Part shown: one piece after another, positions 4,927 through 36,549 of the stretch | How the letters are laid out: each line of letters opens with the position of its first letter | How positions within the stretch are numbered: position 1 is the stretch's first letter | The notes under the pieces: model-generated | Told to the model about the DNA's origin: nothing | Databases searched by the model: none | The model's input: the letters and a program-made list of their open reading frames with translations, nothing else | Virus record (IMG/VR): IMGVR_UViG_3300017951_000030 | Location: 1-41,901 of that record | Source: a virus | Length of the DNA stretch: 41,901 nt | Strand: one strand, 5' to 3' | Position numbers and translations under genes: made by a program

Positions 4927-6279
4927 ATGTTTAATGCAGACTCACAACTCATGGAAAAATGGGGTCCTGTACTAGATCACGAAAGTGCTCCAGGTATTCA
5001 GGATAAATACAAGAAAGCTGTTACAGCTAGATTGTTAGAAAACCAAGAAGTTGCTCTTCAAGAAGAAGCAGCTCAAGCAGGTGGTAACTTCATTTCAGAA
5101 GCAGCAGCTGCTAACAATGTAGGCGCTGGTATGGGCGCTACTGCTGGTAACATCAAAGGCTTTGATCCAGTATTGATCTCTTTAGTAAGAAGAGCAATGC
5201 CAAATCTTATCGCTTATGATATTGCTGGTGTACAACCAATGACTGGTCCTACTGGTCTTATCTTTGCAATGAAGTCTAAGTATGGTTCACAAGCTGGATC
5301 AGAAGCCTTCTTTGATGAAGCAGATACAGACTTCTCAGGAAGTGGTAACCATGCAGCTGGTCCAACTGGTCTCGAAGGAGAAACAGACGGATCAGGTAAT
5401 GATGGTGTCCTAGGTGATGACCTAGCAGATACAACTGTTTCTTTCGGTGAAGGTATTGCTACTGCAGACTCAGAAAGATTAGGTGTCGGTGAATCCGGCG
5501 ACGGAACTTTCGGCGAAATGGCATTCACAATTGAGAAATCAACTGTTACTGCTAAGTCAAGAGCTCTGAAAGCTGAGTACACAATGGAACTTGCTCAAGA
5601 CCTTAAAGCAATTCATGGTCTTGATGCAGAGGCAGAACTTGCTAACATTCTTTCAACTGAAATCCTTGCGGAGATCAACAGAGAGATGGTTAGAACAGTT
5701 ATGTCAAGAGCTAAGTTGGGTGCACAACAATCATCAGTTGCACTAAAAGGTGTATTTGATGTTGCTACAGACTCAGACGGAAGATGGATGGTAGAGAAGT
5801 TTAAAGGTCTTATCATGCAACTAGAAAGAGAAGCAAATATTATTGCTAAAGAAACAAGAAGAGGAAAAGGTAACTATGTTATTTGTTCTTCTGACGTTGC
5901 TTCTGCTCTTGCAGCTGCAGGTGTCCTAGACTACACTCCAGCACTATCAGCAAGTCTTAATGTAGATGATACAGGTAATACTTTCGCAGGTGTTCTTAAT
6001 GGACGTCTAAAAGTTTACATTGATCCATATGCAACTGAAGACTTTGCACTAGTTGGTTATAGAGGTACTAACCCTTATGACGCTGGTATCTTCTACTGCC
6101 CATACGTACCATTAACAATGGTTAAAGCAGTCGGTGAAAATGACTTCCAGCCAAGAATCGGTTTCAAAACTAGATATGGCATGGTAGCTAACCCATTCGT
6201 TGCTGCTGACGGTATCGGTACAGTTAGAACTAACCCATACTTCAGAATCTTTAGAGTAGACGACATTATGGTCGACTAA
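4927..6279 (+). CDS. gp23: Major capsid protein gp23
   Basis: 450 residues (T4 521). HK97-fold hexamer-forming capsid protein. The N-terminal scaffold-facing peptide is expected to be removed by gp21; ISE at residues 56-58 followed by AAAANN fits the (L/I)xE site. Conserved blocks include LISLVRRAMPNLIAYDI, VQPMTGPTGLIFAMKS, KAEYTMELAQDLKAIHGLDAE (shown only in part) and the C-terminal TRYGMVANPF. AGGGGAAA lies before the ATG. A strong terminator follows. Codon use is slightly richer in GCT/GGT than neighbours, as expected for a highly expressed protein. Confidence 0.97.
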   Translation: MFNADSQLMEKWGPVLDHESAPGIQDKYKKAVTARLLENQEVALQEEAAQAGGNFISEAAAANNVGAGMGATAGNIKGFDPVLISLVRRAMPNLIAYDIAGVQPMTGPTGLIFAMKSKYGSQAGSEAFFDEADTDFSGSGNHAAGPTGLEGETDGSGNDGVLGDDLADTTVSFGEGIATADSERLGVGESGDGTFGEMAFTIEKSTVTAKSRALKAEYTMELAQDLKAIHGLDAEAELANILSTEILAEINREMVRTVMSRAKLGAQQSSVALKGVFDVATDSDGRWMVEKFKGLIMQLEREANIIAKETRRGKGNYVICSSDVASALAAAGVLDYTPALSASLNVDDTGNTFAGVLNGRLKVYIDPYATEDFALVGYRGTNPYDAGIFYCPYVPLTMVKAVGENDFQPRIGFKTRYGMVANPFVAADGIGTVRTNPYFRIFRVDDIMVD

Positions 6280-6299: not shown

Positions 6300-6329
6300 A
6301 AAGAGAGCCTTTCGGGGCTCTCTTTTTTT
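6300..6329 (+). terminator. Rho-independent terminator after gene 23
   Basis: AAAGAGAGCC at 6300-6309 pairs with GGCTCTCTTT at 6316-6325 around a TTTCGG loop, and a run of seven T ends the site. It ends the head-gene operon just after gene 23. Confidence 0.92.
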
Positions 6330-6832: not shown

Positions 6833-6861
6833 TTTACTTTTTAGTATTTTTGTAGTATAAT
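6833..6861 (+). promoter_or_regulatory. Early-type promoter for uvsY-uvsW
   Basis: TTTACT at 6833-6838, 17-base spacer, TATAAT at 6856-6861 preceded by TGTAG, matching the consensus repeated through this genome. It lies between the tail-tube-like gene and uvsY. Confidence 0.85.
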
Positions 6862-6894: not shown

Positions 6895-7341
6895 ATGAAT
6901 AATTTAGAACAAATAATTGAAATGTGGAAGAAAGATTCAGTAATTGATGAAATGAATTTAGGTGATGCCTCAAGGGAATCTGCCAAACTTCACTCAAAAT
7001 ACTTAGAATTATATACAGTAAATAAATTAAAATTAAAGAAACTTGATTTAGAATTTAAAGTTTTACTCAAAGAAAAGTTTATGCACTATAATGGTAAACT
7101 TACCCAAGAAGAGTTAGACGATAAAGGTTGGGAATATGATCCTCTTAATGGTCTTACTATCTTAAAAGGTGATATGGATAAATGGTACGATTCTGATCCT
7201 CTTATCCAATCTCATCAAGCCAAACAGCACTATCAACAAGAGTTGGTAGATACACTCAAAGAAATTATGGAAAATATTAAGTGGCGACATCAGTCTATTA
7301 GAAATGCTATTGACTGGCATAAGTTCACTTCAGGTATGTAA
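6895..7341 (+). CDS. uvsY: UvsY-like recombination mediator
   Basis: 148 residues, near T4 UvsY (137). UvsY loads UvsX recombinase onto gp32-coated single-stranded DNA. The sequence is helical and charged, with the conserved start LEQIIEMWKKDSVIDEMNLGDASRE (abridged), then SAKLHSKYLELY and a C-terminal WRHQSIRNAIDWHKFTSGM region typical of the family. Its stop overlaps the uvsW start as TAATG, the same pairing seen in T4. An early-type promoter precedes it. The partner recombinase uvsX lies far downstream at 32364. Confidence 0.9.
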   Translation: MNNLEQIIEMWKKDSVIDEMNLGDASRESAKLHSKYLELYTVNKLKLKKLDLEFKVLLKEKFMHYNGKLTQEELDDKGWEYDPLNGLTILKGDMDKWYDSDPLIQSHQAKQHYQQELVDTLKEIMENIKWRHQSIRNAIDWHKFTSGM

Positions 7342-8846
7342 TGGATTCTATAAAAGTAACCAAGGTAAATGAAACATTCCTTAGAATAGATGCAGACGCA
7401 GGTATTCTTATGGAACTAACAGAGCATTTTTGCTTTTATGTTCCTGGTTACAAATTCATGCCAGCATATAAAAATCGTTTATGGGATGGTAAAATCCGTC
7501 TGTTAGATATGAGAAAAAGAACCCTTTATTGTGGGTTATATAATTATCTAAAAGAGTTTGCAGATGCTAGAGATTATGTAATAGAATTAGAAGCATCAAG
7601 CTATGGATTGCCAGACTCCAAAGAACCAGTTGATATAGAGCATATACTAAATATGGTTACTCTTACAGCTGGTGGCAATAAAATTCAACCCAGAGAATAT
7701 CAACTAGAGGCGCTTCATCATGCACTATCAAATAAAAAATCTTTACTTCTATCCCCTACTGCATCAGGTAAATCTCTTATTATATACATGGCCGTTAGAG
7801 CCTTTCTTGATTCTTATGATAATAATGTTCTTATAATTGTTCCTACCACATCTTTGGTAGAACAGATGTATTCTGACTTTGCTGACTATTCATCACAAGA
7901 CGAGTGGAGTGCAGAAGAGAATTGTCATAAAATATATTCAGGTAAAGAAAAATATAACCTATCACAAAGGGTTATTATCTCTACATGGCAGTCAGTATAT
8001 AAATTAAGAGCACCATGGTTTGAAAACTTTGGTATGGTTGTAGGAGATGAGGCACATAATTTTAAAGCTAAATCACTTACTGCAATTATGGAAAAATGTA
8101 ACGAAGCGGCTATTAAGATCGGGACCACAGGCACATTAGATGGTACCCAAACCCATCAGTTGGTATTAGAAGGATTATTTGGCCCTGTCCATAAAGTTAC
8201 TACCACCAAGAAGTTAATGGATAATGAAGATTTAGCACAATTAAATATTAATATACTATTACTTAAATATAAGGAAGAATTCTGTAGGCTAGTATCAAGA
8301 AATACTTATCAAGAAGAAATGGATTTTATAGTACAATACGGGCCTAGAAATAATTTTATAGCAAACTTAGCTATGAAGAATGAAGGCAACACGCTGATTT
8401 TATTTCAGTATGTAGAGAAACATGGTAAACCTTTACACAGTTTATTACAAGAAAAGTTTGATCAGTTGCCAAGAAAGACAAGGAGGTTGTTCTATGTCTC
8501 AGGGGAGACCGACGTGGATACCAGGGAGAAGGTACGGGAGATTACGGAGAAATCCAGTGACGCGATTATTGTTGCAAGTATGGGCACTTTTTCTACTGGG
8601 ATTAATATTCGTAATTTACACAACATTGTATTTGCTTCACCTAGTAAGTCACAAATTAGGGTTCTGCAAAGCATTGGACGAGGATTAAGAAAGACAGACG
8701 ATGGTAAACCAACTACTGTATTTGACATCGCTGATGATTTACATTGGAAGTCAAAGAAGAATTATACCTTAATTCATGCGGCAGAGCGCATTAAAATATA
8801 CTCGAAAGAAAAGTTTAAGTACAAGATTTACGATATAAATATATAA
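7341..8846 (+). CDS. uvsW: UvsW RNA-DNA and DNA helicase
   Basis: 501 residues, the same size as T4 UvsW (503). SF2 helicase that unwinds R-loops and branched DNA and shifts origin-dependent to recombination-dependent replication. An N-terminal DNA-binding part (YKFMPAYKNRLWDGKIRLL) precedes Walker A SPTASGKS (Lys144), motif II DEAH at 236-239, STWQS, and motif VI QSIGRGLRKT. The start overlaps the uvsY stop by one base, so translation is coupled. All helicase motifs are intact. Confidence 0.96.
   Translation: MDSIKVTKVNETFLRIDADAGILMELTEHFCFYVPGYKFMPAYKNRLWDGKIRLLDMRKRTLYCGLYNYLKEFADARDYVIELEASSYGLPDSKEPVDIEHILNMVTLTAGGNKIQPREYQLEALHHALSNKKSLLLSPTASGKSLIIYMAVRAFLDSYDNNVLIIVPTTSLVEQMYSDFADYSSQDEWSAEENCHKIYSGKEKYNLSQRVIISTWQSVYKLRAPWFENFGMVVGDEAHNFKAKSLTAIMEKCNEAAIKIGTTGTLDGTQTHQLVLEGLFGPVHKVTTTKKLMDNEDLAQLNINILLLKYKEEFCRLVSRNTYQEEMDFIVQYGPRNNFIANLAMKNEGNTLILFQYVEKHGKPLHSLLQEKFDQLPRKTRRLFYVSGETDVDTREKVREITEKSSDAIIVASMGTFSTGINIRNLHNIVFASPSKSQIRVLQSIGRGLRKTDDGKPTTVFDIADDLHWKSKKNYTLIHAAERIKIYSKEKFKYKIYDINI
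8834..8841 (+). promoter_or_regulatory. Possible late promoter at the end of uvsW
   Basis: Exact TATAAATA inside the last codons of uvsW, eight bases before the ATG at 8849. The context (CDS end in AT-rich DNA) and the spacing to the ATG make it uncertain; a transcript would begin inside the next gene. Confidence 0.3.
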
Positions 8847-8848
8847 GT

Positions 8849-9250
8849 ATGGAAATAAGACAGTTCAAACTATTAAATGGTGAAGATATCATTGCTGTGA
8901 TGAATACAAGATACGGCGATCACTATATCATTGAAAGACCAGTTCAGATTGCTTTTGATGGCATGGGTAGGTTAGTATTCAGCCATTGGTTCCCACTTTC
9001 AGAACAGATTATGTTTAAACTATATAAGAACAGATGCATTCAGCATGTGCCAGTGAATAAAGAGTATGAAGAGGCTTATACAAAATATATTATGACCGAA
9101 GAACAGCCTTTCTCAGATACTGAAATATTAGATAGAATTAAATTGCTTCAGGAAACCCTTGAAGTACAGAGAAGATCACAAGAAGAATATGATGAATTGG
9201 AAGACTTTGCTAGTCCAAATGAACCTAAAAAGAGAACTACAATACATTAA
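8849..9250 (+). CDS. Small Sm-like (LSM-type) phage protein
   Basis: 133 residues. The first 75 residues have the strand-rich pattern of small Sm-like proteins common in marine T4-like phages: FKLLNGEDIIAVM, then YIIERPVQIAF and LVFSHWFPLSEQIMFKL. The rest is a charged helix (DRIKLLQETLEVQRRSQEEYDELED) and a basic tail. It resembles the protein at 23761-24045 (RISSGEEVIGEV, then ...FMPFMPYT). Sm-like rings usually bind RNA, but the role here is unknown. It starts two bases after uvsW. A minus-strand promoter just downstream points back through it. Confidence 0.7.
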   Translation: MEIRQFKLLNGEDIIAVMNTRYGDHYIIERPVQIAFDGMGRLVFSHWFPLSEQIMFKLYKNRCIQHVPVNKEYEEAYTKYIMTEEQPFSDTEILDRIKLLQETLEVQRRSQEEYDELEDFASPNEPKKRTTIH

Positions 9251-9288
9251 AAAGTTTAGTATACCTCTATCTCCCCCGGAGTTAATAT

Positions 9289-9317
9289 ATTATACTACAC
9301 TTTTCCGCAAATGTAAA
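9289..9317 (-). promoter_or_regulatory. Minus-strand early-type promoter (antisense)
   Basis: On the minus strand this reads TTTACA (9312-9317), a 17-base spacer ending in GTGTAG, then TATAAT (9289-9294). That is the exact family consensus, including the element before the -10. It points away from gene 55, towards the 3' end of the Sm-like gene at 8849-9250. No convincing minus-strand gene lies downstream, so the product may be an antisense or small RNA. Confidence 0.75.
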
Positions 9318-9361: not shown

Positions 9362-9390
9362 TTTACTTTGTTCAGTTTTTGTAGTATAAT
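9362..9390 (+). promoter_or_regulatory. Early-type promoter for gene 55
   Basis: TTTACT at 9362-9367, 17-base spacer, TATAAT at 9385-9390 with GTAG before it. It is divergent from the minus-strand promoter at 9289-9317, with the -35 boxes 44 bases apart. Confidence 0.88.
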
Positions 9391-9413: not shown

Positions 9414-9977
9414 ATGAAACCTAAGCAAAAGCCACATTACGTGAACAATAAGGAATTCTCTCATGCTGTAGTGGATTACGTTAATGAGTGTAATGTGAAC
9501 AAAGACAAGGGCCTTGATGTACCTACTGTCCCAGATTATATCGCCAGATGCTTTATCAAAATCGCAGAAGGCTTATCCCATAGACCGAACTTCGTGAGGT
9601 ATACCTATCGGGAAGAGATGGTTATGGATGCAGTAGAAAACTGTTTAAGAGCTATTGGCAACTATAATATAGATACTGCAACCAGAACTGGTAATCCAAA
9701 TGCATTCTCATACTTTACTCAAATATGTTACTATGCATTTATCCGTAGAATAACCAAAGAAAAGAAACAACAAGACATTAAATTTAAATTCATTGAAAAG
9801 ATGGGTATTGAAGACTTTGTTGCCATGGGTATGGATAACGCAGGGGCAGCAGAAACAATGAATTATGTTGATACACTAAGACAACGTATTTCTACTGTTA
9901 AACAAAAAGATGCTGCAGTTAAGAAATTTGCAAAAGAGGAAAAGGCTAAAGAGAAACTAGAGCTCTTTATGATATAA
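9414..9977 (+). CDS. gp55: Late-transcription sigma factor gp55
   Basis: 187 residues, the T4 gp55 size. It is a minimal sigma factor that directs host RNA polymerase to TATAAATA late promoters, several of which lie in this window. The region 2-like core is YREEMVMDAVENCLRAIGNY followed by NAFSYFTQICYYAFIRRITKEKK. The C-terminal helix ends in KEKLELFMI, a hydrophobic tail of the kind that contacts the gp45 sliding clamp. TTGGAGAAATA precedes the ATG. Its own promoter is early-type, which fits production before late transcription. Confidence 0.95.
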   Translation: MKPKQKPHYVNNKEFSHAVVDYVNECNVNKDKGLDVPTVPDYIARCFIKIAEGLSHRPNFVRYTYREEMVMDAVENCLRAIGNYNIDTATRTGNPNAFSYFTQICYYAFIRRITKEKKQQDIKFKFIEKMGIEDFVAMGMDNAGAAETMNYVDTLRQRISTVKQKDAAVKKFAKEEKAKEKLELFMI

Positions 9978-12955: not shown

Positions 12956-13032
12956 CTCCCAGTAGCTCAACTGGATAGAGCAACGGCCTTCTAAGCCGTA
13001 GGTTAGAGGTTCGAGTCCTCTCTGGGAGGCCA
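12956..13032 (+). tRNA. tRNA-Arg (anticodon TCT)
   Basis: Cloverleaf visible by eye: acceptor CTCCCAG (12956-12962) pairs with CTGGGAG (13022-13028), discriminator G, encoded CCA at 13030-13032. The anticodon stem ACGGC/GCCGT encloses the loop CTTCTAA with anticodon TCT at 12990-12992, reading AGA. The T arm contains GGTTCGAGTCC. AGA is the main arginine codon in the genes here, so the tRNA should aid phage translation. Confidence 0.97.
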
Positions 13033-15583: not shown

Positions 15584-15612
15584 TTTACAAGCCATGCAAA
15601 ACCAGTTATAAT
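15584..15612 (+). promoter_or_regulatory. Early-type promoter for the AAA+ gene
   Basis: TTTACA at 15584-15589, 17-base spacer, TATAAT at 15607-15612. The segment 15576-15613 is identical over 38 bases to 36513-36550, the promoter of an unrelated gene 21 kb away. Confidence 0.88.
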
Positions 15613-35977: not shown

Positions 35978-36053
35978 GGGGCTATAGCTCAGTAGGGAGA
36001 GCGACTGGTTTGCAACCAGTAGGTCGGGGGTTCGATTCCCTCTAGCTCCACCA
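35978..36053 (+). tRNA. tRNA-Ala (anticodon TGC)
   Basis: Acceptor GGGGCTA (35978-35984) pairs with TAGCTCC (36043-36049) with one G-U, discriminator A, encoded CCA at 36051-36053. The anticodon stem ACTGG/CCAGT encloses TTTGCAA with anticodon TGC at 36011-36013; the T arm has GGTTCGATTCC. It begins five bases after the thyX stop and is probably cut from the same transcript. Confidence 0.97.
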
Positions 36054-36520: not shown

Positions 36521-36549
36521 TTTACAAGCCATGCAAAACCAGTTATAAT
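36521..36549 (+). promoter_or_regulatory. Early-type promoter for the gene at 36581
   Basis: TTTACA at 36521-36526, 17-base spacer, TATAAT at 36544-36549. The segment 36513-36550 is identical to 15576-15613. Confidence 0.88.

Follow-up and report, generated by a model that had tools for sequence, protein, structure and literature searches.

A sigma70-type promoter on the minus strand beside gene 55

The window, by which we mean the whole 41,901-nt stretch of viral DNA analyzed here, carries on its plus strand uvsY, uvsW, an Sm-like gene, and gene 55, followed by homologues of genes 47 and 46 (Table 1). The closest annotated genome by DNA is that of Phage C48C1, a member of the Kyanoviridae. 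The original prediction had placed the site under study among uvsW, the Sm-like gene, and gene 55, and these neighbors are as it stated, with a domain match for uvsW and a family match for gp55. A strong intrinsic terminator (6300-6325) lies upstream of the uvsY operon, right after a gene of the capsid region that ends at 6279. Two tRNA genes are found in the window, at 12956-13029 and 35978-36050.

On the minus strand, positions 9317-9289 read TTTACA-TTTGCGGAAAAGTGTAG-TATAAT, with a 17-nt spacer and no mismatches. The site has the −35 and −10 hexamers of a sigma70-type promoter, a spacing within the range of 16 to 18 nt, and a counterpart at the orthologous position in relatives. Across both strands of the whole window there are 12 exact TTTACA-17-TATAAT sites, of which 11 are on the plus strand and this is the sole minus-strand case; the full reverse consensus claimed for it is thus borne out. 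The same pattern reversed without complementing had no match in the window. The plus-strand promoters at 15584-15612 and 36521-36549 share an identical 29-nt core, spacer included (TTTACAAGCCATGCAAAACCAGTTATAAT).

In its arrangement (TTGACA/TTTACA-17-TATAAT), the site resembles the host-type sigma70 promoters of T4-like cyanophages, and its extended −10 is of the kind seen on the plus strand of the same phage. Unlike those promoters, it drives no gene, opposes all of its neighbors, and has an inverted repeat at its start that is missing from gene 55 (g55) promoters. The predicted start is 32 nt past the Sm-like stop codon, and transcription from it would be directed into the Sm-like gene. Our prediction of this start coincides with the one proposed originally, near 9282. 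The coordinates and the gene neighbors also support the proposed direction, which enters the Sm-like gene at its 3′ end and leads on toward uvsW, and the placement opposite the gene 55 promoter. The promoter had been called early; its sequence is host-like, and a middle promoter would be as possible as an early one. Host-like promoters of Syn9 were reportedly assigned to middle genes by Doron et al. in 2016.

Table 1. Features of the uvsY to gene 55 region, with positions in the window
Feature	Position	Strand	Basis or comment
Sigma70-type promoter 5′ of uvsY	6833..6861	plus	sense promoter of the uvsY-uvsW-Sm operon
uvsW helicase gene	7341..8846	plus	PF21241 UvsW_N
T4-type late promoter TATAAATA	8834..8841	plus	at the uvsW end, a few bases 5′ of the Sm-like start codon
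Sm-like gene, 133 aa, ends T-I-H-stop	8849..9250	plus	phrog_527/471; the predicted RNA is antisense to this gene
Conserved purine-rich tract AGAGGTATAC, predicted initially transcribed sequence	9259..9268	minus	
Short inverted repeat CTCC-GGG-GGAG at the 5′ end of the predicted RNA	9271..9281	minus	stem sequence differs between relatives
Predicted transcription start	9282	minus	7th base after the −10; A in the window, G in 87% of the group; spacing rule and conserved G/GT
−10 element TATAAT	9289..9294	minus	sequence and loci of the window's group
Extended −10 GTGTAG	9295..9300	minus	common to most plus-strand promoters of the window
−35 element TTTACA	9312..9317	minus	sequence; (nearly) invariant in 69 non-redundant loci of the window's group
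Promoter of gene 55 (TTTACT-17-TATAAT), facing away from the minus promoter	9362..9390	plus	sequence and conservation
Gene 55, late sigma factor	9414..9977	plus	gp55 = phrog_234

The minus-strand promoter is conserved in the Kyanoviridae

Loci encoding gp55 were fetched with four queries, namely, gp55 of the window, HTVC008M, S-RIM8, and ACG-2014f. The site is strongly conserved in these related phages, a check that the original prediction had proposed. Counted without regard to phylogeny over deduplicated loci that are the best hits to the four queries and unevenly sampled, a minus-strand promoter matching at least 11/12 within 200 nt before g55 was present in 73/74 loci of the window's group, versus 2.5% of control windows (other 200-nt minus-strand windows from the same loci). 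The corresponding counts for the three other groups were 50/74, 46/68, and 55/74, with controls at 1.8 to 2.6%. Loci that missed this strict test mostly had a −10 of TAGACT, TACACT, or TATACT, or very short gaps, and a relaxed pattern fit 48 of the 56 misses examined. Under that pattern, a minus-strand sigma70-type promoter at most 310 nt upstream of g55 was found in 71/74, 74/80, 63/68, and 73/75 loci of the four groups (controls, 4 to 8%). When a GT start 5 to 7 nt downstream was also required, the counts were 52/74, 65/80, 61/68, and 70/75, versus 0 to 0.4% in controls.

A product of chance or of composition in an AT-rich genome is an extremely improbable explanation of the site. Promoter-like sites are indeed common in the window when up to two mismatches are allowed (32 observed versus 16 expected), but conservation at this position is 92 to 97% in the four groups compared with 4 to 8% in control windows, and these comparative data refute it. 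Judged from sequence and its conservation, the minus site is highly likely to be a real promoter under selection.

Among named phages, the minus promoter was found in C48C1, the pelagiphage HTVC008M, ACG-2014f, S-RIM8, and Syn9 (NC_008296; promoter at 123705-123733, predicted minus-strand start at 123,698). S-CRM01 has a version with a weaker −10 (TTGACA-17-TACACT); its genome (HQ615693) also holds, from ~60.5 kb, a large block of minus-strand genes unlike the other Kyanoviridae examined. P-TIM40 is without the promoter, and its gap before g55 is only 46 nt. A homologue of the Sm-like gene is the upstream neighbor of g55 in 304/306 loci, and in locus L021, where a small open reading frame (ORF) is inserted between the minus promoter and g55, the promoter remains at the Sm-like end. 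Because of this constant neighbor and the place kept in L021, we regard the promoter as a unit with the end of the Sm-like gene, where it belongs. Locus L037 has a duplicated promoter and start region, in two diverged copies at about −390 and about −166 relative to g55. Syn9 likewise has a second copy of the promoter and start region (TTGACA-17-TATAAT-AACACTGCCAGGGTTGATAAGGGC-ATG), on the plus strand at 52741-52790 directly before gp88, as do loci L338-L341.

Conservation extends into the predicted start region

In 69 non-redundant loci of the window's group, information content was high across the promoter, showed a second peak at the predicted +1, and continued through the purine-rich tract to about +20. 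Conservation was concentrated in the promoter and ~25 nt of the predicted RNA. Strong inverted repeats were in excess in every group. They were placed just after the start in the window's group (44% versus 7% in shuffles) and spanned the start in the HTVC (57% versus 10%), S-RIM8 (41% versus 9%), and ACG-2014f (43% versus 7%) groups. The g55 promoters had no comparable excess over shuffles. Wobble pairs in the repeat, compared as a means of distinguishing RNA from DNA, favored the G-T type in two groups and the A-C type in the window's group and so gave no decision. Since both the position of the repeat relative to the start and the wobble types differ between groups, we do not claim an RNA hairpin; an element acting on DNA or at initiation is equally possible.

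Folding predictions for the minus-strand RNA were unremarkable. In the window it did not surpass shuffles, and in the window's group it did so only weakly (mean z of −0.97). The plus-strand RNA of the window (9247-9310) folded at a z of −4.3 through an inverted repeat that takes in the −10 region. We considered a stable conserved RNA fold on the basis of this value and rejected it, as the fold is not group-wide and group means were −0.5 or weaker.

The predicted RNA is very probably non-coding and antisense

No conserved ORF was found on the minus strand. The only candidate would be a leader peptide, with a Shine-Dalgarno-like purine tract followed by TTAATG, and it was rejected because many loci, among them L020, L044-L046, L051, L056, and L057, have a stop as the second codon. 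The tract and TTAATG pattern arises because the Sm-like protein has a conserved T-[ILV]-H-stop end. We also looked for minus-strand intrinsic terminators within 1.5 kb and found none in the window; of the four main groups, three had rates like those of shuffles. In S-RIM8-like loci, terminator matches exceeded shuffles (0.20 versus 0.05 per locus), which makes a short RNA possible there; outside those loci, a small RNA ending at an intrinsic terminator was rejected. The predicted RNA had no match in Rfam. Given the lack of a conserved ORF, of a conserved terminator (the S-RIM8-like excess aside), and of an Rfam match, the product is, most simply and very probably, a non-coding antisense transcript.

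The original prediction had gone on to propose an antisense RNA that could silence uvsW or the Sm-like gene, or else a regulatory RNA. Its basis in the promoter, the direction, and the absence of an ORF stands, and an antisense or non-coding RNA would be the natural product of such a promoter; of the two genes, only the Sm-like gene has a suggestive case for silencing. The suggestion comes from the window's group, in which the Sm-like gene has a late promoter of its own.

Antisense transcription has been observed in Kyanoviridae cyanophages (PMC10976474), so antisense RNA as such is already known in this family. In cyanophage S-PM2, cfrI is an expressed non-coding RNA antisense to the 3′ end of psbA (PMC5931967). 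Like cfrI, the RNA predicted here would be non-coding and antisense, would come from a T4-like cyanophage, and would be situated where the sense gene has its 3′ end. It differs in that the locus is not psbA and that the element, with its conserved promoter and start region, is spread over the sampled family. The limited literature that we searched did not describe this element, which is weak evidence of novelty.

The Sm-like gene and its late promoter

The label given to the Sm-like gene in the original prediction holds. The AlphaFold model of its product (pLDDT of 87.5) matched 3BY7, whose title describes structural similarity to Sm/Lsm RNA-binding proteins, with an rmsd of 1.4 Å over 80 residues and a TM score of 0.91 by target. 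In this structure comparison, true Sm proteins also matched the model, with scores below that of 3BY7. The product is thus predicted, from these models, to have an Sm/Lsm fold. Used alone as the query in a scan of viral contigs, the Sm-like protein retrieved no relatives. At its C terminus (9220-9250 and orthologues), T-[ILV]-H is conserved, although the tail before it is variable and acidic.

In the window's group, 63/74 loci had a TATAARTA late promoter just before the Sm-like start codon, versus 2.8% in the control. It was absent from the three other main groups, in which the minus promoter is still conserved.

Possible roles of the minus promoter

We tentatively favor, as quite possible, a mechanism in which the 3′ end of the uvsY-uvsW-Sm operon is subject to sigma70-dependent antisense and convergent transcription, with a later switch to the late promoter. 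The host-sigma70-type promoter would fire leftwards just past the Sm-like stop codon and yield a non-coding antisense RNA from ~9282. During the phase of the sigma70 holoenzyme, before gp55, this RNA and the convergent polymerases would limit read-through of the 3′ part of the operon, the chief target being the Sm-like gene. Once gp55 replaced sigma70, the minus promoter would fall silent and the Sm-like gene would be expressed from its own late promoter. Such a temporal switch cannot be the full account, because three groups keep the minus promoter without the late one. Further points count against this mechanism: a conserved promoter with ~25 nt of conserved sequence exceeds the needs of plain antisense pairing, the RNA may be short in S-RIM8-like loci, and P-TIM40 manages without the promoter.

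Alternatively, the conserved start region, comprising the first 25 to 30 nt, could be the active part of a small RNA that acts in trans and is possibly bound by the neighboring Sm-like protein. The significant inverted repeat with its varied stems and the predicted Sm/Lsm fold encoded by the adjoining gene would fit such an RNA. We consider it distinctly unlikely, however: three of the four groups are without a terminator that would define a small RNA, neither Rfam nor the folding predictions supported one, and in three groups the 5′ arm of the repeat would be left untranscribed because the predicted start falls within the repeat. A competing or insulating divergent promoter that regulates gene 55 is, in our judgment, very unlikely. 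Polymerase at the minus site would block read-through into g55 or exclude polymerase from the g55 promoter, as might be the case in Syn9, where the divergent TTGACA boxes are interleaved (minus promoter as above, plus promoter from 123718) and the two promoters therefore could not be bound simultaneously. But in the window, as in most of its group, ~45 bp separate the −35 boxes, and in L021 a gene separates the minus promoter from g55, so a fixed coupling to g55 is not conserved.

A replication origin is also unlikely. Here, the leftward transcript would stay annealed as an R-loop and prime leading-strand synthesis, in the manner of T4 oriF and of the proposal for oriE, and UvsW would later remove the R-loop. 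T4 provides a precedent for promoter-linked R-loop origins: oriE, oriF, and oriG are close to places where the transcribed strand changes, oriE apparently requires an early promoter, and UvsW unwinds the R-loops of oriF and oriG (PMC3016281). The minus promoter, conserved though no gene is served, is close to uvsW, and a conserved sigma70-type promoter beside uvsY/uvsW recalls both oriF (the uvsY promoter) and oriE (an early promoter). Unlike at those origins, the minus promoter points into the Sm-like gene, and the fourfold-site skew gives no indication of the site. In HTVC008M, the sign of the GC skew at the third positions of all codons reverses near the site, and in Syn9 it does so approximately there; this suggestive signal was lost on restriction to fourfold sites, which do not support an origin here. 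The minimum of the fourfold-site skew was offset from the site by −8.2 kb in Syn9, −5.2 kb in S-RIM8, +2.7 kb in C48C1, −25 kb in HTVC008M, and 102 kb in ACG-2014f. In the minus-strand genes of Syn9, S-RIM8, and S-CRM01, the sign of the skew is that expected from coding-strand bias. Inspection of the site, short of a systematic search, identified no iterons and no AT-rich unwinding element.

A broader form of antisense control, namely, a family-wide regulatory antisense RNA of T4-like marine phages that controls or is bound by the adjoining Sm-like protein and serves to switch between transcription by host sigma70 and by gp55, is unlikely. The Kyanoviridae are abundant marine phages. The presence of the minus promoter in >90% of the sampled loci and in several lineages, with no gene served, suggests a required antisense RNA or a replication signal, and either of these, if true, would fill a real gap.
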